A DNA stretch of 64,000 nt from Pseudomonas rhizophila (GTDB lineage Bacteria; Pseudomonadota; Gammaproteobacteria; Pseudomonadales; Pseudomonadaceae). Shown here piece by piece: positions 6,792 through 17,377 of this stretch. Below the pieces are notes generated by a model. The model saw only the letters and a list, made by a program, of their open reading frames with translations, did no database searches and was not told the origin of the DNA. The translations under genes were made by a program, and so were the position numbers. The stretch spans positions 2,973,462-3,037,461 of the forward strand of contig NZ_CP024081.1 in NCBI RefSeq assembly GCF_003033885.1, read 5' to 3'. Position 1 is the stretch's first letter. The number at the start of each line of letters is the position of its first letter.

Positions 6792-7108
6792 CAGCTTGCT
6801 TCCCGCAATGCCAGCATCACCCGGCCGTTTTCGACCCGCGCCGCATGATGATGAGCGCAACCCACATCCGGGGCCTGAGCCTGGCCGGTTTCCAGGTCGA
6901 TCTGCCAGTTGTGCAGCGGGCAGGCCACGCGCTTGCCATAGATCAACCCCTGGGACAGCGGGCCACCCTTGTGCGGGCAGCGGTCATCGAGTGCGAAAAC
7001 CTCATCGTCGCTGGTACGAAAAATCGCGATATCGCCTTTCGGGCCATTGATGATGCGCGAGCCCAGGGCGTTGATCTCTTCCAGTGCGCAGATATCCAGC
7101 CAGTTCAT
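6791..7108 (-). CDS. nirD: NADH-nitrite reductase small subunit (Rieske type)
   Basis: A 105-residue Rieske-fold subunit of assimilatory nitrite reductase. Two ligand groups of the [2Fe-2S] site are seen: CPHKGGPLSQG and CPLHNWQIDLETG, so both Cys-x-His and Cys-x-x-His pairs are intact. It partners NirB in reducing nitrite to ammonium in the cytoplasm. Its ATG overlaps the nirB stop by four bases (7105-7108) and its stop overlaps the nasA start, so translation of the three is probably coupled. Confidence 0.95.
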   Translation of the reverse strand: MNWLDICALEEINALGSRIINGPKGDIAIFRTSDDEVFALDDRCPHKGGPLSQGLIYGKRVACPLHNWQIDLETGQAQAPDVGCAHHHAARVENGRVMLALREAS

Positions 7109-9558
7109 GCCGGTACCTCCAGGTTTTTCACGGTGATGACTTCAAACTCTTTCTTCAGCTGGGGCTGTTCCAGGCGTTCTTTCCATGGGTCCTGTTCCAA
7201 CGACAGGGAGAACTTCAGGCGGTCATGCAAGGCTTTGCGTCGTTGCGGATCTTCAAGTACTGCTTTCTTGATGTGCTCCATGCCGACCCGTTGCATGTAG
7301 TGCACGGTGCGTTCGAGGTAGAAGGCTTCTTCGCGGTACAACTGCAGGAATGCGCCGTTGTATTCGCGCACTTCTTCGGCGGTCTTGAGTTTGACGAAGA
7401 ATTCGGCGACCTCAGTCTTGATCCCGCCGTTACCGCCGATGTACATCTCCCAGCCGGAATCGACGCCGATAATGCCGACATCTTTGATGCCCGCTTCCGA
7501 GCAGTTGCGGGGGCAACCGGAAACGGCCAGCTTCACTTTGTGGGGCGACCACATGTTGAAGAGGTCGTGCTCCAGCTCGATTCCCAATTGGGTGGAGTTC
7601 TGCGTGCCAAAACGGCAGAATTCGCTGCCTACGCAGGTTTTTACGGTGCGGATGGATTTGCCATAAGCGTGGCCGGACGGCATGTCCAGGTCTTTCCAGA
7701 CTCCGGGTAGATCCTGCTTTTTGATCCCTAGCAAGTCGATACGCTGGCCGCCGGTGACCTTGACCATCGGCACGTTGTATTTGTCGGCCACATCGGCAAT
7801 GCGCCGCAACTCAGACGGATTGGTCACGCCACCCCACATCCGCGGGACGACGGAGTAAGTGCCATCTTTCTGGATGTTGGCGTGGGCACGCTCGTTGATC
7901 AGGCGCGACTGCGGATCGTCGTGCGCTTCGCCGGGCCAGGTGGAAATCAGGTAGTAGTTGAGCGCCGGGCGGCAGGTGGCGCAGCCGTTTGGGGTGCGCC
8001 AGTTCAGGTAGCTCATGGTTGCGGCGATGGTCAGCAGATGCTGGTCGCGGATCGCCTGGCGAATCTGCCCATGGTTGAGATCGCTGCAACCGCAGATGGC
8101 TTTTTCGCTTTTCGGTTTGACGTCCGCCGCGCCGCCCACGGTGTTGATCAGGATCTGCTCCACCAAACCGGCGCAGGAGCCACAGGAACTGGCGGCCTTG
8201 GTGTGTTTTTTCACATCATCGACGCTGAACAGCCCATGCTCCTGGATCGCCTTGACGATGGTGCCCTTGCACACGCCGTTGCAGCCGCAGACTTCGGCGG
8301 TGTCGGCCATGTTCATGGCTTTGTCCTGGCCCTGGTGTCCTACGTCTCCCAGGGCGTTTTCCCCAAACATCAGGTGATCGCGGATCTCGCTGATGGTGTG
8401 GTTCTCACGGATCTGACGGAAATACCAGCCACCGTCTGCCGTATCGCCGTACAGACAGGCGCCGACCAGCACGTCATCCTTGATCACCAGTTTTTTGTAG
8501 ACGCCACCAATCGGGTCGGAAAGGGTGATGGTCTCGGTGCCTTCGCCGCCCATGAAGTCCCCGGCGGAGAACAGGTCGATGCCGGTGACTTTGAGTTTGG
8601 TCGAGGTCACTGACCCCTTGTAGGTGGCGAAGCCCAGTTGCGCGAGGTGGTTGGCACAGACCTTGGCTTGCTCGAACAGCGGTGCCACCAGGCCGTAGGC
8701 GGTTCCACGGTGGCTGGCGCATTCACCGATGGCATAGATGCGCGGGTCGTAGGTTTGCATCGTGTCGTTGACCAGAATCCCGCGGTTGCAAGGGATGCCG
8801 GACTTTTCCGCCAGTTCGGTATTGGGGCGGATACCGGCGGCCATCACCACCAGATCGGCCGGGATGATGTCACCGTTTTTGAATTGCACCGAGCCGACCC
8901 GGCCATTGCCGGCGTCGTGCAGGGCTTGCGTTTGTTCGCTCAGGCGGAATTTCAGCCCGCGATTTTCCAGGGCGGTTTGCAGCAACTGACCGCTGGTCTT
9001 GTCCAGCTGACGCTCCAGCAGCCATTCACCCAGGTGCACCACTGTCACGTCCATGCCCCGCAGTTTCAAGCCGTTGGCGGCTTCCAGGCCGAGCAGCCCG
9101 CCGCCGATCACCACGGCGTGTTTGTGGGTCTTGGCGGTGTTGATCATCGCCTGGGTGTCGGCGATGTCGCGGTAGCCGATGACGCCATCCAGGGTGTTGC
9201 CGGGGATCGGCAGGATGAATGGCGTGGAGCCTGTGGCGATCAGCAGACGGTCGTATTCGGCTTCGCTGCCGTCCTCGGCGATGACCCGGCGCTTGACTCG
9301 GTCGATCTCCACGACCTTGCGGTTGAGCAGCAGCTTGATGTTGTTGTCCAGGTACCAGCTCAGGTCGTTGAGCACGATCTCTTCAAACGTCTGCTCGCCG
9401 GCGAGCACGGGCGAGAGCAGGATTCGGTTGTAGTTGGTATGAGGCTCGGCGCCGAACACCGTGATGTCGTATAGCTCATTGCTCAGCTTGAGCAGTTCTT
9501 CAAGGGTTCGAACCCCGGCCATGCCGTTGCCGATCATCACCAGTTTGAGTTTCTTCAT
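7105..9558 (-). CDS. nirB: NADH-nitrite reductase large subunit
   Basis: An 817-residue cytoplasmic siroheme enzyme. The N-terminal half is an FAD/NAD(P)H oxidoreductase (MIGNGMAGVRTLEELL, VVIGGGLLGLEAANGLK, IYAIGECASHRGTAYGLVAP). The middle has BFD-like [2Fe-2S] motifs (CGCNGVCKGTIV, SCGSCAGLV, CGCSDLNHGQIRQAI). The C-terminal sulfite/nitrite reductase domain has the siroheme/[4Fe-4S] cysteines in CVGSEFCRFG and SGCPRNCSEAGIKDVG. I chose the ATG at 9558 (GGAGAACCCTG upstream) over an earlier in-frame start. It is first in nirB-nirD-nasA-cobA and is preceded by an ANTAR leader with terminator and a sigma-54 promoter. Confidence 0.97.
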   Translation of the reverse strand: MKKLKLVMIGNGMAGVRTLEELLKLSNELYDITVFGAEPHTNYNRILLSPVLAGEQTFEEIVLNDLSWYLDNNIKLLLNRKVVEIDRVKRRVIAEDGSEAEYDRLLIATGSTPFILPIPGNTLDGVIGYRDIADTQAMINTAKTHKHAVVIGGGLLGLEAANGLKLRGMDVTVVHLGEWLLERQLDKTSGQLLQTALENRGLKFRLSEQTQALHDAGNGRVGSVQFKNGDIIPADLVVMAAGIRPNTELAEKSGIPCNRGILVNDTMQTYDPRIYAIGECASHRGTAYGLVAPLFEQAKVCANHLAQLGFATYKGSVTSTKLKVTGIDLFSAGDFMGGEGTETITLSDPIGGVYKKLVIKDDVLVGACLYGDTADGGWYFRQIRENHTISEIRDHLMFGENALGDVGHQGQDKAMNMADTAEVCGCNGVCKGTIVKAIQEHGLFSVDDVKKHTKAASSCGSCAGLVEQILINTVGGAADVKPKSEKAICGCSDLNHGQIRQAIRDQHLLTIAATMSYLNWRTPNGCATCRPALNYYLISTWPGEAHDDPQSRLINERAHANIQKDGTYSVVPRMWGGVTNPSELRRIADVADKYNVPMVKVTGGQRIDLLGIKKQDLPGVWKDLDMPSGHAYGKSIRTVKTCVGSEFCRFGTQNSTQLGIELEHDLFNMWSPHKVKLAVSGCPRNCSEAGIKDVGIIGVDSGWEMYIGGNGGIKTEVAEFFVKLKTAEEVREYNGAFLQLYREEAFYLERTVHYMQRVGMEHIKKAVLEDPQRRKALHDRLKFSLSLEQDPWKERLEQPQLKKEFEVITVKNLEVPA

Positions 9559-9623
9559 CAGGGTTCTCCACAAGCTCAGGCCCGGTTCATCACGGTGCTC
9601 GGACTGGCTCGATACTTTTACGA

Positions 9624-9668
9624 AAACAAAAAAAGGCGTCCCGCTAGTTGCCTAGCGAGGACGCCTTT
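9624..9668 (-). terminator. Leader terminator before nirB
   Basis: On the minus strand AAAGGCGTCC pairs with GGACGCCTTT (9659-9668 with 9632-9641). An inner CGCTAG/CTAGCG stem (9652-9657 with 9642-9647) sits inside, and a U-rich tract follows. It lies about 65 bases before the nirB ATG with no gene in front, so it would stop transcription inside the leader unless prevented. Its 5' arm shares bases with leader hairpin P2. Confidence 0.9.
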
Positions 9669-9722
9669 GTCCTTGTCCCGTTCTCTCGGGAAGCACCGCC
9701 CTCATCGTTGGAGGCGTTGCTT
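9659..9722 (-). ncRNA. ANTAR target RNA (two hexaloop hairpins) in the nirB leader
   Basis: Read on the minus strand. Hairpin P1 (9722-9691) has 13-position arms with two mismatches around the loop AACGAT. Hairpin P2 (9672-9659) is GGAC-AAAGGC-GTCC. Both loops have six bases with A at position 1 and G at position 4, the rule published for ANTAR-protein RNA targets. The 3' arm of P2 (GUCC) is also part of the terminator's 5' arm, so P2 and terminator cannot form together. NasT, encoded at 13264-13839, is the likely binder. A third hairpin CCCG-AGAGAA-CGGG lies between P1 and P2 and also obeys the loop rule. Confidence 0.85.
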
Positions 9723-9743
9723 TATGTATGGTGAGAGAGGTTA

Positions 9744-9759
9744 TGCAGTGGTTGTGCCA
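9744..9759 (-). promoter_or_regulatory. Sigma-54 type promoter of nirB-nirD-nasA-cobA
   Basis: The minus strand reads TGGCACAACCACTGCA: a GG (-24) and a GC (-12) at the canonical spacing, close to TGGCACG-N4-TTGCA. The predicted start near 9733 puts hairpin P1 about 11 bases into the transcript. NtrC activation under nitrogen limitation is the usual arrangement. A half-site-like TGCACCG at 9824-9830 lies roughly 95 bases upstream. Confidence 0.72.
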
Positions 9760-9894
9760 ACTGGCTTGAGGGCGCGGATTTATTGGAGGGGAGGCGGGTT
9801 GTGCGGATTGGAGCGGGATTTATTGCACCGAATCAAAGCGTGTTGCCCGGTATTGGAGCGTCCCGCAGGCGCAGTTGCAGGGACCATCAGGCCG

Positions 9895-9970
9895 CCATCG
9901 CGAGCAGGCTCGCTCCCACATTGGATCTGCGGTGGACACAAAACCTGTGGGAGCGAGCCTGCTCGCGATA
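9895..9970. repeat. REP family A inverted pair
   Basis: Two inverted copies of the GTGGGAGCGAGCCTGCTCGC unit, separated by about 26 bases, lie between the nirB promoter region and the end of the phosphatase/kinase gene. Confidence 0.93.
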
Positions 9971-9984
9971 GACGCGACTGGGTT

Positions 9985-11655
9985 TCAGCCATGAAACGCT
10001 AAATACAGCAGCACCAGATTCACCACCAAAGACACCAGCGCCAATGTGCGCCAAACCTTCAGCGGCTCCCTTTCCAGTAGCGGCCGAGGCCTGACGCCCA
10101 AGCTGCGCCGTTCACCCTGTTCCAGCAGCAACAGCCATTCCTCGGCGGTTTCAAACCGTTGCCCAGGATCCGCCGCCACGGCACGCTCCAGGCTTTGCCC
10201 AAGCCATTCGGCCAGGTCCGGTCGATAGCGATGGGCACTGACCGGTATGCCAAAGCGCGGTCGCTGGAACGCCTCGATTTCGCCGTAGGGATAGTGTCCG
10301 GTGAGCAGGAAATACAAAGTCACGCCGACCGCATACAAGTCTTGTTGCGCCGTCGGCGGCGCACCCCCGAAGGCTTCCGGGGCGATATAGCTGGGCGTGC
10401 CGGGCAGCACGTTGGCCTGGTCTTCGGACAATCCCGGGCAGTACGCCAGGCCGAAATCCAGCAAGCGCAGTTCCCCATCCTCGCCCAGGTGCAGGTTCTC
10501 CGGCTTGATATCGCGGTGAAAGATCTGTCTTCGATGCAACAGGCCCACCGCGTGCACCAGCCGCTGCGCCAGATCCTGCCACTGGGGCAGAGGCAACGGG
10601 CCGCCCTGGTTGAACAGCTCGGCCAGGGTCTTGCCCGAATATTCCCGCATGACGTAGTACAAATGCTGACGCTGGGCAACGCCGTGGACTTCCGGAAACT
10701 GCCTCCCGGCGACCCGCCTGAGGAACCACTCTTCCGACAGCAACGACTGCCCGGCCTGAGTATCGTCCCGTAGATGCCCCGGCAAGGTTTTCAGCAACCA
10801 CGGTTGGCCCTGGCCATCGTGTACCCGGTAGAGCAACGATTGCTGGCTCTGGCCGAGCAGGCTTTCGATCTGCCAGCCCTCGAACACTTGCCCCGGTTTC
10901 AATGCCGGGGGAAGGGGCCATTGCTGTAACTGGGCCAGCGCATCGCCTATGCTCGCTTCACCCACCGCATCGACCCGCACCAGCAGTGCGCTGGCGTTGT
11001 CCTGGCTGCCGGCCAGGTGCGCAGCGTTGACCAGGGTTTGCGCGGCAATGTCCAGGTCCGGCTGGTCGCGAAGGATACCGGCGATGGCCGTGTCCCCCAG
11101 AACCGCCCAGACGCCATCGCTGAGCAGTACGAAGGTCTCGTCGGCGCGCAGTTCGCCATCGAGGAAGTCCAGGATCAGGTGCTGATCCAGCCCCAGGGCA
11201 CGCTTGAGCACGTGCTGCATGCCCTGTTGTTCCCAGACGTGATCCTCACTGACCCGCTGCAGATGATTGTCGTGCCAGCGGTAGACCCGGCAATCGCCCA
11301 CGTGGGCCAGGGTGAAGCGCCGGCCCCGCAGGACCAGCGCGCTGACGGTGGTGAGCAGCGGTTGCCCGCCACCGTTGGCTTGCAGCCAGCGATTCTGTGC
11401 CAATAACAGCCGGTCCAGCGCTTGGGCCACACCCCAGGTTTGCGGCGTGGAATAGTAGTCCAGGGCCAGGGCCTGCAAGGTCGAACGGGCGGCCAGCCCG
11501 CCATCGGCGCATTGGCTCACACCGTCGGCGATGGCGAACAGGTACCCCTTGCTCGCGGCCAGGGCCGGCGCCGGGGTCACCAGGCGCAGGGCGTCCTGGT
11601 TTTCTTCCCGAGGGCCAATGGCACTGGCTTCGGCAAAACTCAGTTGCAGGCTCAT
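9985..11655 (-). CDS. Bifunctional PP2C phosphatase / Ser-Thr protein kinase, membrane anchored
   Basis: A 556-residue fusion. Residues about 1-235 are a PP2C domain (IADGVSQCADGGLAA, HVGDCRVYRW, LLSDGVWAVLG, SQDNASALLVR). Residues about 265-520 are a eukaryotic-type kinase with catalytic loop HRDIKPENL (His at 380), DFG at 400-402 and YIAPEAFGG as the APE motif. The glycine-rich loop is degenerate (LGQSQQSLLYRV), but a Lys follows in LLKTLP. A C-terminal hydrophobic helix (about 535-553, LALVSLVVNLVLLYLAF) should anchor it in the inner membrane. It starts nine bases after the stop of the nitrate transporter, so the two are cotranscribed. A role in modulating nitrate uptake or its regulation is inference; the substrate is unknown. 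Confidence 0.92.
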   Translation of the reverse strand: MSLQLSFAEASAIGPREENQDALRLVTPAPALAASKGYLFAIADGVSQCADGGLAARSTLQALALDYYSTPQTWGVAQALDRLLLAQNRWLQANGGGQPLLTTVSALVLRGRRFTLAHVGDCRVYRWHDNHLQRVSEDHVWEQQGMQHVLKRALGLDQHLILDFLDGELRADETFVLLSDGVWAVLGDTAIAGILRDQPDLDIAAQTLVNAAHLAGSQDNASALLVRVDAVGEASIGDALAQLQQWPLPPALKPGQVFEGWQIESLLGQSQQSLLYRVHDGQGQPWLLKTLPGHLRDDTQAGQSLLSEEWFLRRVAGRQFPEVHGVAQRQHLYYVMREYSGKTLAELFNQGGPLPLPQWQDLAQRLVHAVGLLHRRQIFHRDIKPENLHLGEDGELRLLDFGLAYCPGLSEDQANVLPGTPSYIAPEAFGGAPPTAQQDLYAVGVTLYFLLTGHYPYGEIEAFQRPRFGIPVSAHRYRPDLAEWLGQSLERAVAADPGQRFETAEEWLLLLEQGERRSLGVRPRPLLEREPLKVWRTLALVSLVVNLVLLYLAFHG

Positions 11656-11664
11656 GGAGGCTAT

Positions 11665-12876
11665 TTATACCCGAGCCGCGGTGACAGCGGCCGAACCCCA
11701 GGTGGTCCTCCAGCGACGCTTGACGCCGTACAGGCCGAACCAAGCCAGGACGCCGAGGCTGGCGAACAACCACAGTGCCAGTTGATAGCTGCCGGTGCTT
11801 TGCTTGATCGCGCCCATGCCTGCCGCCAGGGCGAAACCGCCGATGCCGCCGGCCATGCCGATCAATCCGGTCATCACGCCGATCTCGCGACGGAAGCGTT
11901 GTGGCACCAGTTGGAATACCGCGCCGTTGCCCGCACCCAAACCGAGCATGGTGCAGACGAACAGGGCCAGGGCCGCGTAGGAGCTTGGCAGATTGAAGCC
12001 CACTGCCGCGATGCAGACAGCGGCCACGGTGTACATGCCCAACAGGGTGCGAATGCCACCGAAACGATCCGCCAGGGCGCCGCCCAGTGGACGCATCAGG
12101 CTGCCCCCGAAGACGCAAGCGGCGGTGTAGTAACCGGCGGTCACCGGGCTCAGGCCGTACTGGTCGTTGAAGTAGCCGGGCAGTGCGCTGGCCAGGCCGA
12201 TGAAGCCGCCGAAGGTGACGCTATAGAAGAACATGAACCACCAGCTGTCCCGGTCGCCCAAGGCCTTGAGGTAGTCGCCCATGGATTTGGCTTTTGGCCG
12301 CTCGGGAGCGTTCTTGGCCAGCCAGGCGAAGAGGATCAGGGTCACGATCAGCGGGATCAGCGCGAAACCGAACACGTTGCTCCAGCCGAATGCCACTGCC
12401 ATTACCGGTGCGATCAGCGCAGCCAGTACGGTGCCCGAGTTACCAGCGCCGGCAATGCCCATGGCCTTGCCCTGGTGCTGTGGCGGATACCACTGGGAGG
12501 CCAGCGGCAGGGCCACGGCGAATGACGCACCGGCCACGCCGAGGAACAGCCCCAGCAGCAAGGCTTGTTCGTAGCTGTGGATGCCCAGTTTCCAGGCACA
12601 GAACAGTGCACCGATCACAATCACCTGACCGACCATACCGGCGGTTTTCGGTGAAATCCGGTCGGCCAGCAGGCCCATGAACAAGCGCAGTACGGCACCG
12701 GCCAGGATCGGCGTAGCCACCATCAGGCCGCGTTGCTGGGTGGTCAGGTGCAGGTCGGCAGAGATCTGCACCGCCAGTGGACCGAGCAGGTACCAGACCA
12801 TGAAACTCAGGTCGAAATAGAGGAAGGCCGCGAACAGTGTCGGGGTGTGGCCGGATTTCCAGAAGCTTGAATTCAT
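11665..12876 (-). CDS. MFS nitrate/nitrite transporter (NNP family)
   Basis: A 403-residue transporter with about 12 membrane helices. Two copies of the nitrate-signature type motif are seen, GAGNSGTVLAALIAP and LGAGNGAVFQLVPQ, which identify the nitrate/nitrite porter family (NarK/NasA). The first helix region FAAFLYFDLSFMVWYLLGP is also typical. The ATG at 12876 was chosen because upstream in-frame codons would lie in the leader. It is preceded by a sigma-54 promoter and an ANTAR leader with terminator, and followed closely by the phosphatase/kinase gene. It brings nitrate to NasA. In Pseudomonas literature this transporter is sometimes itself called nasA, so I leave the symbol empty. Confidence 0.93.
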   Translation of the reverse strand: MNSSFWKSGHTPTLFAAFLYFDLSFMVWYLLGPLAVQISADLHLTTQQRGLMVATPILAGAVLRLFMGLLADRISPKTAGMVGQVIVIGALFCAWKLGIHSYEQALLLGLFLGVAGASFAVALPLASQWYPPQHQGKAMGIAGAGNSGTVLAALIAPVMAVAFGWSNVFGFALIPLIVTLILFAWLAKNAPERPKAKSMGDYLKALGDRDSWWFMFFYSVTFGGFIGLASALPGYFNDQYGLSPVTAGYYTAACVFGGSLMRPLGGALADRFGGIRTLLGMYTVAAVCIAAVGFNLPSSYAALALFVCTMLGLGAGNGAVFQLVPQRFRREIGVMTGLIGMAGGIGGFALAAGMGAIKQSTGSYQLALWLFASLGVLAWFGLYGVKRRWRTTWGSAAVTAARV

Positions 12877-12976
12877 CGCGCACCTCAGCTGTAAAAGTCT
12901 CGAGAAATGAGTCAGTGCCTTGAAGCAGTGCGCCGCCTGTGGCTGCACCACCGACCCCGGACTGTGGGATCAAAAC

Positions 12977-13027
12977 AAAAAAACGCCGCAACCCGAATCG
13001 CCAGGGGGCGAGGAGGGTGTGCGACGT
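12977..13027 (-). terminator. Leader terminator before the nitrate transporter
   Basis: On the minus strand ACGTCGCA (13027-13020) pairs with TGCGGCGT (12990-12983), one G-U pair included. GGGT/ACCC and CGCC/GGCG inner stems support it, and a seven-U tract follows (12983-12977). It ends about 100 bases before the transporter ATG. Its 5' arm overlaps leader hairpin P2. Confidence 0.88.
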
Positions 13028-13062
13028 CTTTGTCGTAGGTGGGGCAACCGCCGTTGGTTACC
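13022..13062 (-). ncRNA. ANTAR target RNA in the nitrate transporter leader
   Basis: On the minus strand P1 is GGTAACC-AACGGC-GGTTGCC (13062-13043), seven pairs with one wobble. P2 is CGAC-AAAGAC-GTCG (13035-13022). Both six-base loops have A1 and G4. The 3' arm of P2 is shared with the terminator's 5' arm. Order and spacing mirror the leaders of nirB and nasS. Confidence 0.85.
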
Positions 13063-13076
13063 TGTGGCTTTGCTAA

Positions 13077-13092
13077 AGCGAGAACTGTGCCA
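13077..13092 (-). promoter_or_regulatory. Sigma-54 type promoter of the nitrate transporter unit
   Basis: The minus strand reads TGGCACAGTTCTCGCT, with GG and GC at the -24/-12 spacing. The predicted start near 13066 falls about four bases before hairpin P1. A REP cluster begins only 20 bases further upstream. Confidence 0.68.
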
Positions 13093-13112
13093 ACAGGGGA
13101 GCAGTGTGAGAC

Positions 13113-13238
13113 CTATCGCGAGCAGGCTCGCTCCCACAGTGGATCTTCAGTGGCCATGAAACCTGTGGGAGCGGGCCTGCTCCCACATTGGAGTTCCAGT
13201 GGCCACAGGATCTGTGGGAGCGAGCCTGCTCGCGATAG
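13113..13238. repeat. REP family A cluster of three copies, the middle one truncated
   Basis: An inverted copy (13113-13139), a shortened copy in the middle (TGTGGGAGCGGGCCTGCTCCC around 13164-13187, lacking the CGCGAT end) and a third full copy (13214-13238) lie between nasT and the transporter promoter. Confidence 0.9.
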
Positions 13239-13263
13239 CGCCGGGCCAGGCGCTGCAAGGCTT

Positions 13264-13839
13264 TCAGCCGAGCAACTCATTCATCGCAATGATCTGCTCG
13301 GCCACCTGGATCAGCTTCTGCTGGCGACTCATGGCCTGGCGGCGCATCAGGGTGTAGGCCTGTTCTTCGTTGCATTCTTTCATCTTCATCAGCATGCCCT
13401 TGGCCAGTTCGATGCGTTTGCGTTCGGCCAGTTGCTGGTCCCGGGCCAGGAGCTGGGCGCGCAGGGCCTGGTCGCTTTCGAAGCGGGCCATGGCCACGTC
13501 GAGGATCGGTTGCAGGCGCGCGGCGTGGATGCCTTCGACGATGTAGGCGCTCACGCCCGACTTGATCGCCTGGCGCATTACATCCGGGTCGTGGGAGTCG
13601 GTAAACATGACGATCGGTCGTGGCTGGTCGCGGCTGACCAGCACCACTTGCTCCATGACATCGCGCCCGGGTGACTCGGTATCGATCAGGATCACGTCCG
13701 GACGCACTGTTTCGACGCGTGCCGGCAGGTCGATGGTCAATCCGGATTCATCGATGACTTCGAACCCGGCCTCAATCAGGGCCGCTTTGAGACGGCCGAC
13801 TTTTTTCGCGGTGTCGTTGATCAGCAGGATACGCAGCAT
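13264..13839 (-). CDS. nasT: NasT, ANTAR-domain transcription antiterminator
   Basis: A 191-residue response-regulator-like protein. Residues 1-120 resemble a receiver domain (MLRILLINDTAKKVGRLK, VILIDTESPGRDVMEQ), but the usual acidic cluster at the N-terminus is reduced to N-D. Residues about 130-190 are an ANTAR RNA-binding domain (RKRIELAKGMLMKMKECNEE, AYTLMRRQAMSRQQKLIQVA). NasT binds two-hairpin RNAs in nitrate leaders and prevents termination; without nitrate it is held by NasS. It lies 14 bases after nasS, in the same transcript. Three matching target leaders are found in this window. Confidence 0.96.
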   Translation of the reverse strand: MLRILLINDTAKKVGRLKAALIEAGFEVIDESGLTIDLPARVETVRPDVILIDTESPGRDVMEQVVLVSRDQPRPIVMFTDSHDPDVMRQAIKSGVSAYIVEGIHAARLQPILDVAMARFESDQALRAQLLARDQQLAERKRIELAKGMLMKMKECNEEQAYTLMRRQAMSRQQKLIQVAEQIIAMNELLG

Positions 13840-13853
13840 GGTCGTGGCTCCTG

Positions 13854-15065
13854 TCAGCGGCTGGCGAAGAGGGGAGCCGCATCGCTCAAAGCGTGCAGTT
13901 TGAAGCTTTTGGCATAAGCGGCCGGATCCGAGCCGTCCCAGATGGTGCCGTCGATCAATTGGCTGCTGCGCATGTCCTGGCGGGGGGCGGCGATGTCCAG
14001 TGCCGCGCAGGCTTGACGGTAGAGCGTGAGCTGCTGGACTTGCTGTGCCACGGCCAGATAATCCGGGTCTTCACGCAACAGGCCCCAGCGGCGGAACTGG
14101 GTCATGAACCACATGCCATCGGACAGGTAGGGCAGGTTCACTTCGCCGTTGCCGTGGAAACGCATCGCGTGAGGGTCCTGCCAGCTGTTGCCCAGCCCGT
14201 CGGCGTAAATCCCCAACAGGCGCGGCTCGATGCAATCCAGCGGTGCGTCCAGGTATTCGGGGGCACTCAATAGTTGTGCGGTGCTGCGGCGGTTCTCGGT
14301 GCTTTGCTCAATGAAGCGACTGGCTTGCAGGATCGCCATCACCAGTGCGCGGGCGGTATTGGGGTATTGCTCGACGAATGCACGGGTGCAGCCGAGGACT
14401 TTTTCCGGGTGATCGGGCCAGATGGTTTGAGTCGTCGCCAGGGTGAAGCCCAGGTTCTGTTTGACCGCACTGGCGCACCACGGCTCGCCCACGCAGAACC
14501 CGTCGATCCGTCCGGCCTGCAGGTGGGCGATCATTTGCGGCGGCGGTACCACCACACTGTCGACATCCGACAGCGGATGGATGCCTTGAGCGGCGAGCCA
14601 GTAATAGAGCCACATGGCGTGGGTGCCAGTGGGGAAGGTCTGGGCGAAAGTCAGTTTCGGGCGAGTTTGGTGCACATGCTGTTCCAGTGCCTCAGGACTG
14701 GTCACGCCTTGGGCCTGCAAGCCATGGGAAAGGTTGATGCTCTGGCCGTTCTGGTTCAGCCCCATCAACACCGCCATGTCGGTCGGCGCGACCCCGCCGA
14801 TGCCCAGGTGCACCGCGTAGATCAGGCCATAAAGGCTGTGGGCGGCATCGATTTCACCGCTGACCAGCTTGTCCCGCAGGTTGGCCCAGGACGCTTGGCG
14901 CTTGAGGTTCAAAGTCAGCCCGTAAGGCTGGGCAAAGCCCTGGGTGGCGGCCACCACCAGCGGCGCGCAGTCGCTCAAGGCCATGAAGCCAAGATTGATC
15001 GCGCTCTTTTCCGGGGCATCGCTGCCGTTGACCCAGGCCAGGGGGTTGGCTGGAATTTCATTCAT
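13854..15065 (-). CDS. nasS: NasS, cytoplasmic nitrate/nitrite sensor
   Basis: A 403-residue protein of the NrtA/NasS nitrate-binding family. Core phrases are INLGFMALSDCAPLVVAATQ, DKLVSGEIDAAHSLYGLIYA and GRIDGFCVGEPW, all typical of ABC-type nitrate-binding proteins. There is no signal peptide, which separates the cytoplasmic sensor NasS from periplasmic NrtA. Nitrate or nitrite binding should release NasT. It is the first gene of nasS-nasT and is preceded by its own terminator, ANTAR hairpins and sigma-54 promoter. Confidence 0.95.
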   Translation of the reverse strand: MNEIPANPLAWVNGSDAPEKSAINLGFMALSDCAPLVVAATQGFAQPYGLTLNLKRQASWANLRDKLVSGEIDAAHSLYGLIYAVHLGIGGVAPTDMAVLMGLNQNGQSINLSHGLQAQGVTSPEALEQHVHQTRPKLTFAQTFPTGTHAMWLYYWLAAQGIHPLSDVDSVVVPPPQMIAHLQAGRIDGFCVGEPWCASAVKQNLGFTLATTQTIWPDHPEKVLGCTRAFVEQYPNTARALVMAILQASRFIEQSTENRRSTAQLLSAPEYLDAPLDCIEPRLLGIYADGLGNSWQDPHAMRFHGNGEVNLPYLSDGMWFMTQFRRWGLLREDPDYLAVAQQVQQLTLYRQACAALDIAAPRQDMRSSQLIDGTIWDGSDPAAYAKSFKLHALSDAAPLFASR

Positions 15066-15083
15066 CGCGCATCACCTTTCCAC

Positions 15084-15131
15084 AAAAAAAGGCGCCGTAT
15101 CCGGACGCTTGCAAGGCCGGATGACGACGCC
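15084..15131 (-). terminator. Leader terminator before nasS
   Basis: On the minus strand GGCG pairs with CGCC (15131-15128 with 15094-15091) and ATCCGG with CCGGAT (15122-15117 with 15104-15099), followed by a seven-U tract (15090-15084) only 19 bases before the nasS ATG. Its 5' arm overlaps hairpin P2. Confidence 0.85.
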
Positions 15132-15182
15132 GTTGTCCTTCAAATACAGTGTGGCACTCATTCCGTCGTTGGCATGGGTGCC
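15126..15182 (-). ncRNA. ANTAR target RNA in the nasS leader
   Basis: On the minus strand P1 (15182-15153) has two 12-base arms with two mismatches around the loop AACGAC. P2 (15137-15126) is GAC-AACGGC-GTC. Both loops carry A1 and G4. P2 is the weakest of the three in this window, with only three certain pairs. It shares bases with the terminator arm at 15128-15131. Confidence 0.8.
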
Positions 15183-15197
15183 GATGAACGCAAGTGG

Positions 15198-15213
15198 TGC
15201 AAGGCATATGCCA
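15198..15213 (-). promoter_or_regulatory. Sigma-54 promoter of nasS-nasT
   Basis: The minus strand reads TGGCATATGCCTTGCA, the best match of the three nitrate promoters to TGGCAYR-N4-TTGCA. The predicted start near 15187 is five bases before P1. An NtrC-like dyad TGCA-N11-TGCA lies at 15228-15246, unusually close for an enhancer site. Confidence 0.75.
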
Positions 15214-15303
15214 TCGCCGCTGTTTTGTGCAGGCGCCTCGCGTGCATCGTCGTAGCCCGGCTATAATCGCCGCCTCATTTCGTCGCCCGAGTCCAAGCCG
15301 CCC

Positions 15304-16846: not shown

Positions 16847-17377
16847 AGGGTGTTGCCCTCACTTGTTGACTGTTGCTTAGCGTCGACCTCTATTGAGGCC
16901 GGGGCAGAATCATTCTGCCGTTGGTGGCTCGTTGCCGGCGTGACGAGCCGAGGTGTTGACGCCGTTGCGACGTCAACCTGTGTTGAGTTCTAACCAAAGC
17001 GTCACATGGATGGAATGATCGTTTTGTCATAAGCACGTAACAATAAAGATGTTAGGGCGATAAGTAACATGATGTTCGTCACCCGCTTTCAGGCAAGACC
17101 CCTGTATGATCGGCCCTGCATCGAAGGGTGCAGCCCTCAGGCGAATGAGAATGTCCCCCCGTTGCACTCGGGTACTATTCGACGAAAGGGTCGAGTTTTC
17201 ACAATTTGTTGCACAGAATTTTTTATCTGCCCTCGCCTCTAAGCTCTTTTAACCTGAGCGGCGAGGGTGGCACGGCACACTTTCGTGCCACACGGGTGTT
17301 CTTGAGAAAAGCACCTGATTGAACCCGGCCCGGCAATGCGTTGCCCGGTCCACTTAGCCAAAGGCTCTGGAAATCCC
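16847..17377. other. Gene-free region between rmf and rlmKL with two stem-loops
   Basis: No convincing coding frame is present in this 531-base stretch. It must hold the divergent promoters of rmf and rlmKL. Two adjacent hairpins are oriented toward rlmKL: CCCTCGCC/GGCGAGGG (17230-17237 with 17260-17267) and GTGGCACG/CGTGCCAC (17267-17274 with 17284-17291). The hairpins share base 17267. Neither is followed by a T tract, so they look like leader structure or a small RNA rather than a terminator. Confidence 0.6.

Follow-up and report, generated by a model that had tools for sequence, protein, structure and literature searches.

Do neighbouring nitrate operons of Pseudomonas rhizophila share one RNA switch, and which protein would read it? 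The stretch of DNA analysed here (64,000 nucleotides of contig NZ_CP024081.1, positions 2,973,462 to 3,037,461; hereafter the window, numbered from its first letter) carries nirB, a narK-type transporter gene (narK below) and nasS-nasT, all on the minus strand, as are the features given below. A first-pass annotation made from the sequence alone had described the same order before each of the three: a sigma-54-type promoter, two hairpins (P1 and P2), a terminator overlapping P2, and the gene. We recovered this order at all three operons. Very probably, the three leaders are ANTAR-controlled attenuators placed behind sigma-54 promoters, on which NasT would act as a nitrate-dependent antiterminator.

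Leader architecture at the three operons

The -24/-12 element GG-N10-GC is present at 9758/9746 for nirB (TTGGCACAACCACTGCAT, 9743..9760), at 13091/13079 for narK (TTGGCACAGTTCTCGCTT, 13076..13093) and at 15212/15200 for nasS-nasT (ATGGCATATGCCTTGCAC, 15197..15214). It is also found in relatives, where the same type of element precedes nirB. With +1 placed 12 nt beyond the GC, the starts, which are predicted and not mapped, fall at 9733, 13066 and 15187, respectively. P1 begins 11 nt (9722), 4 nt (13062) and 5 nt (15182) further on, in line with the 4-11 nt reported initially.

At nirB, P1 (9691..9722, loop AACGAT, with a C.A mismatch below the closing pair) is followed by P2 (9658..9673, AGGAC[AAAGGC]GTCCT). 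The corresponding hairpins are GGTAACC[AACGGC]GGTTGCC (P1, 13043..13062) and CGAC[AAAGAC]GTCG (P2, 13022..13035) at narK, and, at nasS, P1 with loop AACGAC (15153..15182) and P2 GAC[AACGGC]GTC (15126..15137). All six hexaloops listed by the annotation carry A at position 1 and G at position 4 (A1/G4). Intrinsic terminators with a T-run extend over 9628..9668 (nirB, -28.1 kcal/mol), 12977..13026 (narK, -24.2 kcal/mol) and 15084..15131 (nasS, -23.5 kcal/mol). In each of them the 5' arm includes the 3' arm of P2, so that P2 and the terminator are mutually exclusive. Whole leaders folded with ViennaRNA into P1 and the terminator at all three operons; when folding was stopped after P2, nirB and narK formed P1 and P2.

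Two of the leaders match Rfam families. The nirB promoter and leader (9635..9771) score 132.8 bits with RF00625 (P11; gathering score 70), and the narK leader (13021..13091) scores 79.6 bits with RF03032 (narK RNA; gathering score 43.2), with which the nirB leader remains below cut-off (20.9 bits). The nasS leader reaches neither cut-off (26.6 bits with RF00625, 22.2 bits with RF03032).

A scan for the complete module (promoter, hexaloop pair and overlapping terminator) gave exactly three matches in the window, and 27 matches in 3126 first-order Markov resamplings (200 Mb), i.e. 0.0086 per window, by criteria written after the sites had been seen. Its nirB match consists of P2 and a further hairpin located between P1 and P2 (see below), because P1 has the C.A mismatch. 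Over the whole genome, the P1-P2 pattern occurred at five places, the three leaders and two others, and the reversed-pattern control at four. The two others were rejected as leaders as they had neither a sigma-54 site nor a T-run. Over 149 same-genus genomes the reversed control was about equal in many genomes, and no count was drawn from this pattern.

We then examined these 149 relatives, 129 of which encode NasT (E of 1e-95 or less), and took 60 stretches around P11 matches. The leader alignments, window included, comprise 47 rows for nirB, 41 for narK and 22 for nasS. From the nirB alignment we excluded L014, whose -24 element is altered, L022 and L039, whose stretches gave no NirB match, L056, likewise without one, and the NirB homologues (34-38%) of the other loci among L051-L061. 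From the narK alignment we excluded L034, which has no T-run, and L038, where the upstream sequence is unrelated. The nasS alignment supersedes a 24-row version. L011 and L021 were withdrawn, their NasS-like proteins (62-63%) being probably paralogues, as was L019, with an insertion within the terminator stem; L002 entered after reassignment of its promoter. The nasS genes of L035 and L050, with the leader deleted, stand outside the alignment.

Each helix set was compared with 500 shuffles and with slid versions. Paired cells and covariation score were above all shuffles and all slid versions in the six sets. P1 of nirB has 9 of 11 pairs changed on both sides, with 80.7% of cells paired, and its second pair, mismatched in the window, is formed in 41 of 47 leaders. 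For the three nirB hairpins together 86.7% of cells are paired, and the nine both-side-changed pairs, all within P1, were reached in 14/500 shuffles. In the nirB terminator 97.9% of cells are paired and both-side changes affect 6 of its 13 pairs, a count reached in 0/500 shuffles. At narK, P1 (96.5% of cells paired) has three such pairs and P2 (100%) is almost invariant, for 97.8% together; the terminator has five (84.3% of cells paired). Of the 11 pairs of nasS P1 (80.2% of cells paired), eight changed on both sides, and these account for all such pairs in P1 and P2 together (84.7%); the eight outer pairs of its terminator (95.5%) include three. P2 varied little at any operon: GGAC/GTCC is invariant in 47/47 nirB leaders, where the outermost A-T pair is formed in 19/46, and the three nasS pairs, as well as GAC[A..G.C]GTC, are unchanged in 22/22. 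Thus P1 stems and terminators covary, while P2 is too invariant to tell. Near-invariance of P2 fits a double duty in P2 and terminator.

In the annotation the leaders formed one half of a gate, the other half being NtrC at the promoter. The NtrC-site consensus is GCACYN5RGTGC. With up to two mismatches it occurs 150 times in the window, against 157 expected, which leaves the NtrC half without sequence support. Two-mismatch sites lie at 9825-9839, upstream of nirB, and at 15186-15200, overlapping the nasS -12 region. Because NtrC-like sites are at chance level, we claim promoter membership for sigma-54 alone. According to the available text of the P. protegens Cab57 study (PMC3973561), its authors found no NtrC sites before nalA; in P. 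stutzeri, a partly available report gives lower transcripts of nasS, nasT and other nas genes in an ntrC mutant (PMC8443478). NtrC activation, where it appears in our scheme, is taken from the literature.

Several observations weigh against the attenuator reading. P2 helices, which hardly or never vary, bring no covariation support of their own. The both-side-changed counts were reached in 44/500 shuffles for nasS P1 and P2, 37/500 for the nasS terminator and 121/500 for the narK terminator, and the counts of further pair types in 77/500 for the nirB hairpins and 123/500 for nasS P1 and P2. In the window, nirB P1 has a single C-G closing pair before its mismatch, and ViennaRNA favours an inner tetraloop. 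P2 of nasS is a weak 3-bp helix (-2.3 kcal/mol), and in the fold stopped after P2 its region pairs otherwise. The P1-P2 gap is 17 nt at nirB (filled by the middle hairpin), 7 nt at narK and 15 nt at nasS, so that narK has a linker of the EutV type (5-12 nt) and nirB and nasS do not; this length was measured for EutV only and we did not treat it as defining for NasT. Finally, upstream of the three promoters, NtrC-like matches with two mismatches occur at chance level alone.

The nasS and nirB leaders in relatives

A model built from the 22 nasS leaders found matches at a distance of 1.0-1.7 kb upstream from nasT; they occur in at least 93 of the 129 NasT genomes, a lower bound given the strict filters. 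Among the 36 NasT genomes without a listed match, 22 were examined and the nasS leader was missing or decayed in 21. In 14 of the 22, the sigma-54 site is kept and the hexaloop pair and terminator are gone (L103 retains a P1 remnant). L104 and L114 carry a CGG promoter variant and no leader, the leaders of L112 and L117 look decayed, and L111 has P2 and terminator with a P1 devoid of G4. In L106, L115 and L118, nasS lies behind another gene and no sigma-54 site was found. The 'strict repetition' of the module, as first proposed, is therefore no fixed rule, since nasS often lost its leader and usually kept its promoter.

The terminator did not outlive the hairpins. In the 16 examined NasT genomes with a nasS promoter and no leader, there was no terminator stronger than -6.8 kcal/mol before a T-run; T-runs were present in L035, L113 and L050 alone, where the preceding hairpins have -1.9, -1.9 and -6.8 kcal/mol, respectively. 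Intact nasS leaders gave -24.9 (window) and -28.2 kcal/mol (L028) in the same test. In L106, which has no promoter of its own, a T-run follows a possible hairpin (-18.0 kcal/mol) partly formed by the end of the upstream gene. Hairpins and terminator thus go together in the losses, and loss of the terminator along with P2 is expected if P2 is needed to relieve it.

These losses could also be read in another way, in which nirB and narK are NasT attenuators and the leader of nasS is a relic undergoing decay, or else a simple constitutive attenuator that only damps the supply of NasS-NasT. The weak nasS P2 and the 21 missing or decayed leaders are in its favour, as is the P. denitrificans nasT leader region, for which the available part of the published description mentions an NtrC site and no ANTAR leader. 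On the other hand, the 22 nasS leaders have a covarying P1 and an invariant P2 motif, and the model matches upstream of nasT in most NasT genomes. We consider this account rather unlikely, and retain an ANTAR-controlled attenuator at nasS-nasT as well.

Two observations on nasS genes stand apart. In L019 (G092), P1 and P2 are intact and about 200 nt with palindromic-element-like sequence are inserted inside the terminator stem. L011 and L021 carry their 62-63% NasS-like gene behind a sigma-54 leader of its own with two hexaloops, AACGGC/AACGGT; the protein is probably not the NasT partner.

At nirB, the initial account had missed, besides P1 and P2, a third A1/G4 hexaloop hairpin, TCCCG[AGAGAA]CGGGA (9676..9691), whose first base is the last base of P1. 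Its four stem pairs CCCG/CGGG are invariant in 47/47 leaders. Among leaders from NasT genomes, A1/G4 is found in P1 and P2 in 44/44 and in the middle loop in 37/44 (the other seven being L020, L026, L037, L040, L041, L047 and L050). This difference suggests P1 and P2 as the core, with a less constrained middle loop. The middle hairpin would most likely be a spacer keeping P1 and P2 close, or an extra landing site for NasT.

P11 could instead be mainly a trans-acting small RNA, with a terminator that merely sets its 3' end. RF00625 is indeed typed as a gene in Rfam, and a terminated leader would build up as a short RNA. Nevertheless, P11 directly precedes nirB in the aligned relatives and carries ANTAR hairpins. 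We equate it, by position and content, with NalA, which a review, as far as its available text goes, describes as the nirBD operon leader antiterminated by NasT (PMC12830290), and which the Cab57 study, likewise available in part, places in the same locus (PMC3973561). A mainly trans-acting P11 is thus very improbable, even though trans-acting and leader roles could coexist.

A different nirB-like locus was noticed in other same-genus genomes (L051-L061). A 34-38% NirB homologue lies behind a sigma-54 leader composed of P1 GATC[AACGGC]GATC, P2 CAGGC[AAAGGC]GCCTG and an overlapping terminator (L056 has the leader and no NirB match).

NasT, NasR and the proposed circuit

NasT is the sole ANTAR protein that we found in the genome of the window. 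Across the 149 genomes, P11 matches occur in 100 and narK RNA matches in 131 (E up to 1e-3, weak matches included), or in 85 and 127 above the Rfam cut-offs. At least one of the two was found in 129/129 NasT genomes (narK RNA in 128), compared to 6 of the 20 without NasT, the other 14 having neither (Fisher p 2.4e-15, with genomes treated as independent). The genomes are related, and such Fisher values therefore exaggerate the strength of the evidence.

The six NasT-less genomes with a leader are G001, G018 and G144 (P11), G043 (a weak match, 31.6 bits), and G068 and G084 (narK RNA). Five of them encode a NIT-ANTAR protein of NasR type, against none of the 14 leaderless genomes (Fisher p 4e-4), one of which, G051, has two ANTAR matches, neither of them NasR. 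NasR accompanies NasT in G069 alone among the 129 NasT genomes. In the sixth, G084, no ANTAR match was found; its narK-type leader (L079) stands before a nitrate reductase gene and is either an orphan leader or the result of an assembly gap. This leader might suggest that the hairpins are read by another RNA-binding protein or by nitrate directly, as a riboswitch, their ANTAR resemblance being coincidental, which is hardly credible given the near-perfect co-occurrence with NasT or NasR and an A1/G4 signature known, from partly available sources, in EutV and NasR targets.

ANTAR proteins thus remain the preferred readers. Co-occurrence and the single ANTAR protein of this genome agree with NasT in this role, as originally proposed; another reader is possible too, as five relatives with leaders encode NasR in its stead. 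As a whole, the first interpretation was partly supported, by the ANTAR-type leaders, their mutually exclusive structures, the covariation of P1 and terminators and the co-occurrence with NasT; the NtrC half, the strict repetition and NasT as sole reader found no support in the form first given.

What do the leaders look like under NasR? Three nirB rows come from NasR genomes. L036 has all three A1/G4 signatures; in L048 and L049, P1 is without the signature and the middle loop is AGCGAA or AACGAT. G018, a single contig with one ANTAR match (NasR), has an intact P1-middle-P2 nirB leader. Its NasR shares 95-98% identity with records of P. cichorii and P. capsici. Used as a query against genome contigs, this protein gave 125 relatives; the best 80, which were retained, include P. 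cichorii, P. capsici, P. flavescens, P. daroniae and P. seleniipraecipitans. Rfam, applied to 13 of the 80 loci, found P11 in three (L127, L128 and L130) and none within the flank in the P. cichorii and P. capsici stretches. A looser scan, made without a chance control and including some rows that are not nas leaders, detected a sigma-54 site, one or more A1/G4 hairpins and an overlapping terminator in 47 of the 80; in 36 of these, mostly Variovorax and related Burkholderiales, the unit follows the nasR match by no more than about 250 nt. Just after nasR, in G018 and G144 (L101 and L099), we also observed a GGAC[AACGGC]GTCC hairpin, overlapped by a terminator and accompanied by a sigma-54-type site; between nasR and the NasS-like gene no clear A1/G4 P1 was seen, as judged by eye. 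Since five of the six NasT-less leader genomes encode NasR, the leader seems to outlast the sensor swap: judging from sequence, orthologous nirB operons in one genus keep it across NasT/NasR replacement. NasR is reported to replace NasTS in Klebsiella, in the available text of one paper (PMC5424462).

The proposed mechanism is as follows. In the absence of nitrate, NasS would hold NasT, and RNA polymerase would stop at the terminator, which is expected to form by default. In its presence, free NasT would bind the A1/G4 hexaloops and keep P2 closed; the 3' arm of P2 would then be unavailable to the 5' arm of the terminator, allowing transcription into the gene. At nasS-nasT, the sensor pair would be its own target, in a positive loop running only when the promoter is active. 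Nitrate-dependent release of NasT from NasS and binding of NasT to leader RNA have been shown in Paracoccus (PMC3795266, available in part). For Pseudomonas nirBD, the accessible part of the review cited above (PMC12830290) reports binding of NalA by NasT, the involvement of a sigma-54 promoter and phosphorylated NtrC, and a weakening of NasT by c-di-GMP.

One may speculate further, and we offer this only tentatively, that the leader is a sensor-neutral socket, one unit of promoter, hexaloops and terminator serving either NasS/NasT or NasR, so that a lineage could change its nitrate sensor without changing the RNA. The middle nirB hexaloop would relay between P1 and P2 across an over-long gap, and replace P1 in the NasR genomes G144 and G001; the sensor operon would join or leave the circuit by joint gain or loss of hairpins and terminator, switching positive feedback on and off in evolution.

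The genes served by these leaders belong to a minus-strand nitrate-assimilation cluster: nasS, nasT, the NarK-family transporter gene, a PP2C/Ser-Thr kinase fusion, nirB, a nitrate reductase-type gene and cobA. The product of 13854..15065, a nitrate/nitrite sensor of the NMT1-like family (PF13379, 7e-96), we take to be NasS from gene order and homology. NasT (13264..13839) has a receiver and an ANTAR domain, the transporter gene (11665..12876) encodes a NarK-family nitrate/nitrite transporter above the TIGR00886 cut-off, and nirB (7105..9561) encodes the large subunit of assimilatory nitrite reductase. The fused PP2C phosphatase and Ser/Thr kinase gene (9985-11655), between narK and nirB, is possibly read from the narK promoter.

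Other features were observed in the window and in relatives. Inverted repeats of the TCGCGAGCAGGCTCGCTCCCACAGG kind occupy intergenic DNA upstream of the nirB and narK promoters (9898-9968 and 13119-13232); they are presumably a dispersed palindromic element and give sub-threshold microRNA matches in Rfam. An rmf RNA match (110 bits, gathering score 45) lies at 16865-16997. The narK leader of L034 (G061) lacks the usual terminator T-run and carries, downstream, an exact inverted copy of the P2 sequence. In L061 (893-4984, minus strand), a long open reading frame resembling a nitrate reductase fused to a flavoprotein has a narK-RNA match at its start, and would likely be another regulon member.

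Relation to known antitermination systems

The nirB switch is already known. The literature searched yielded no description of narK RNA as a target of ANTAR proteins, of a third hexaloop at nirB or, for Pseudomonas, of an ANTAR leader ahead of nasS-nasT, which is weak evidence of absence, and no paper treating the P11 or narK RNA families with NasT. Predicted NasT hairpins before narK are mentioned for Bradyrhizobium in a partly available source (PMC6759348). The nasS-nasT leader, the third nirB hairpin and the relatives keeping the switch under another sensor look new. Taken together, these results join P11, narK RNA and a nasS leader below the Rfam cut-offs in one proposed circuit, so that all three can be annotated with a mechanism. 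Current ideas on how an ANTAR protein passes from P1 to P2 can be tested on the three-hairpin nirB leader, and the idea of a single RNA code shared by ANTAR proteins on the orthologous leaders that exchanged NasT for NasR. The natural losses of the nasS leader make it possible to compare nitrate responses with and without self-control of the sensor.

Concerning Rfam, the narK leader of the window is a member of RF03032 by score. That model begins inside the promoter, spans the sequence of P1 and P2, pairs P1 alone and omits the terminator.

Among the closest known systems is NalA-NasT of P. aeruginosa and P. putida which, as far as the available texts go (PMC12830290, PMC3973561, PMC7261876), has the nirBD operon, the sigma-54 promoter, the terminator and NasT in common with the window. 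In addition, the window repeats this layout ahead of narK and nasS-nasT, and its nirB leader contains a third A1/G4 hexaloop.

The E. faecalis eut leaders read by EutV, according to partly available accounts, also have two A1/G4 hexaloop hairpins with P2 overlapping the terminator, as in the window. Their linkers measure 5-12 nt, induction is drastically lost at 3 or 14 nt, and a 20-nt linker extension gave no antitermination in vitro (PMC3369931, PMC8934654). The gaps at nirB and nasS are longer than these linkers.

In Klebsiella nasF, in the parts available of two reports (PMC3369931, PMC5424462), the ANTAR nitrate sensor NasR prevents termination in the leader, under Ntr control at low nitrogen, the same two-signal logic as proposed for the window leaders. 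There the sensor is one fused NIT-ANTAR protein, compared to the NasS/NasT pair here, and some Pseudomonas relatives pair a P11 leader with a NasR-type protein.

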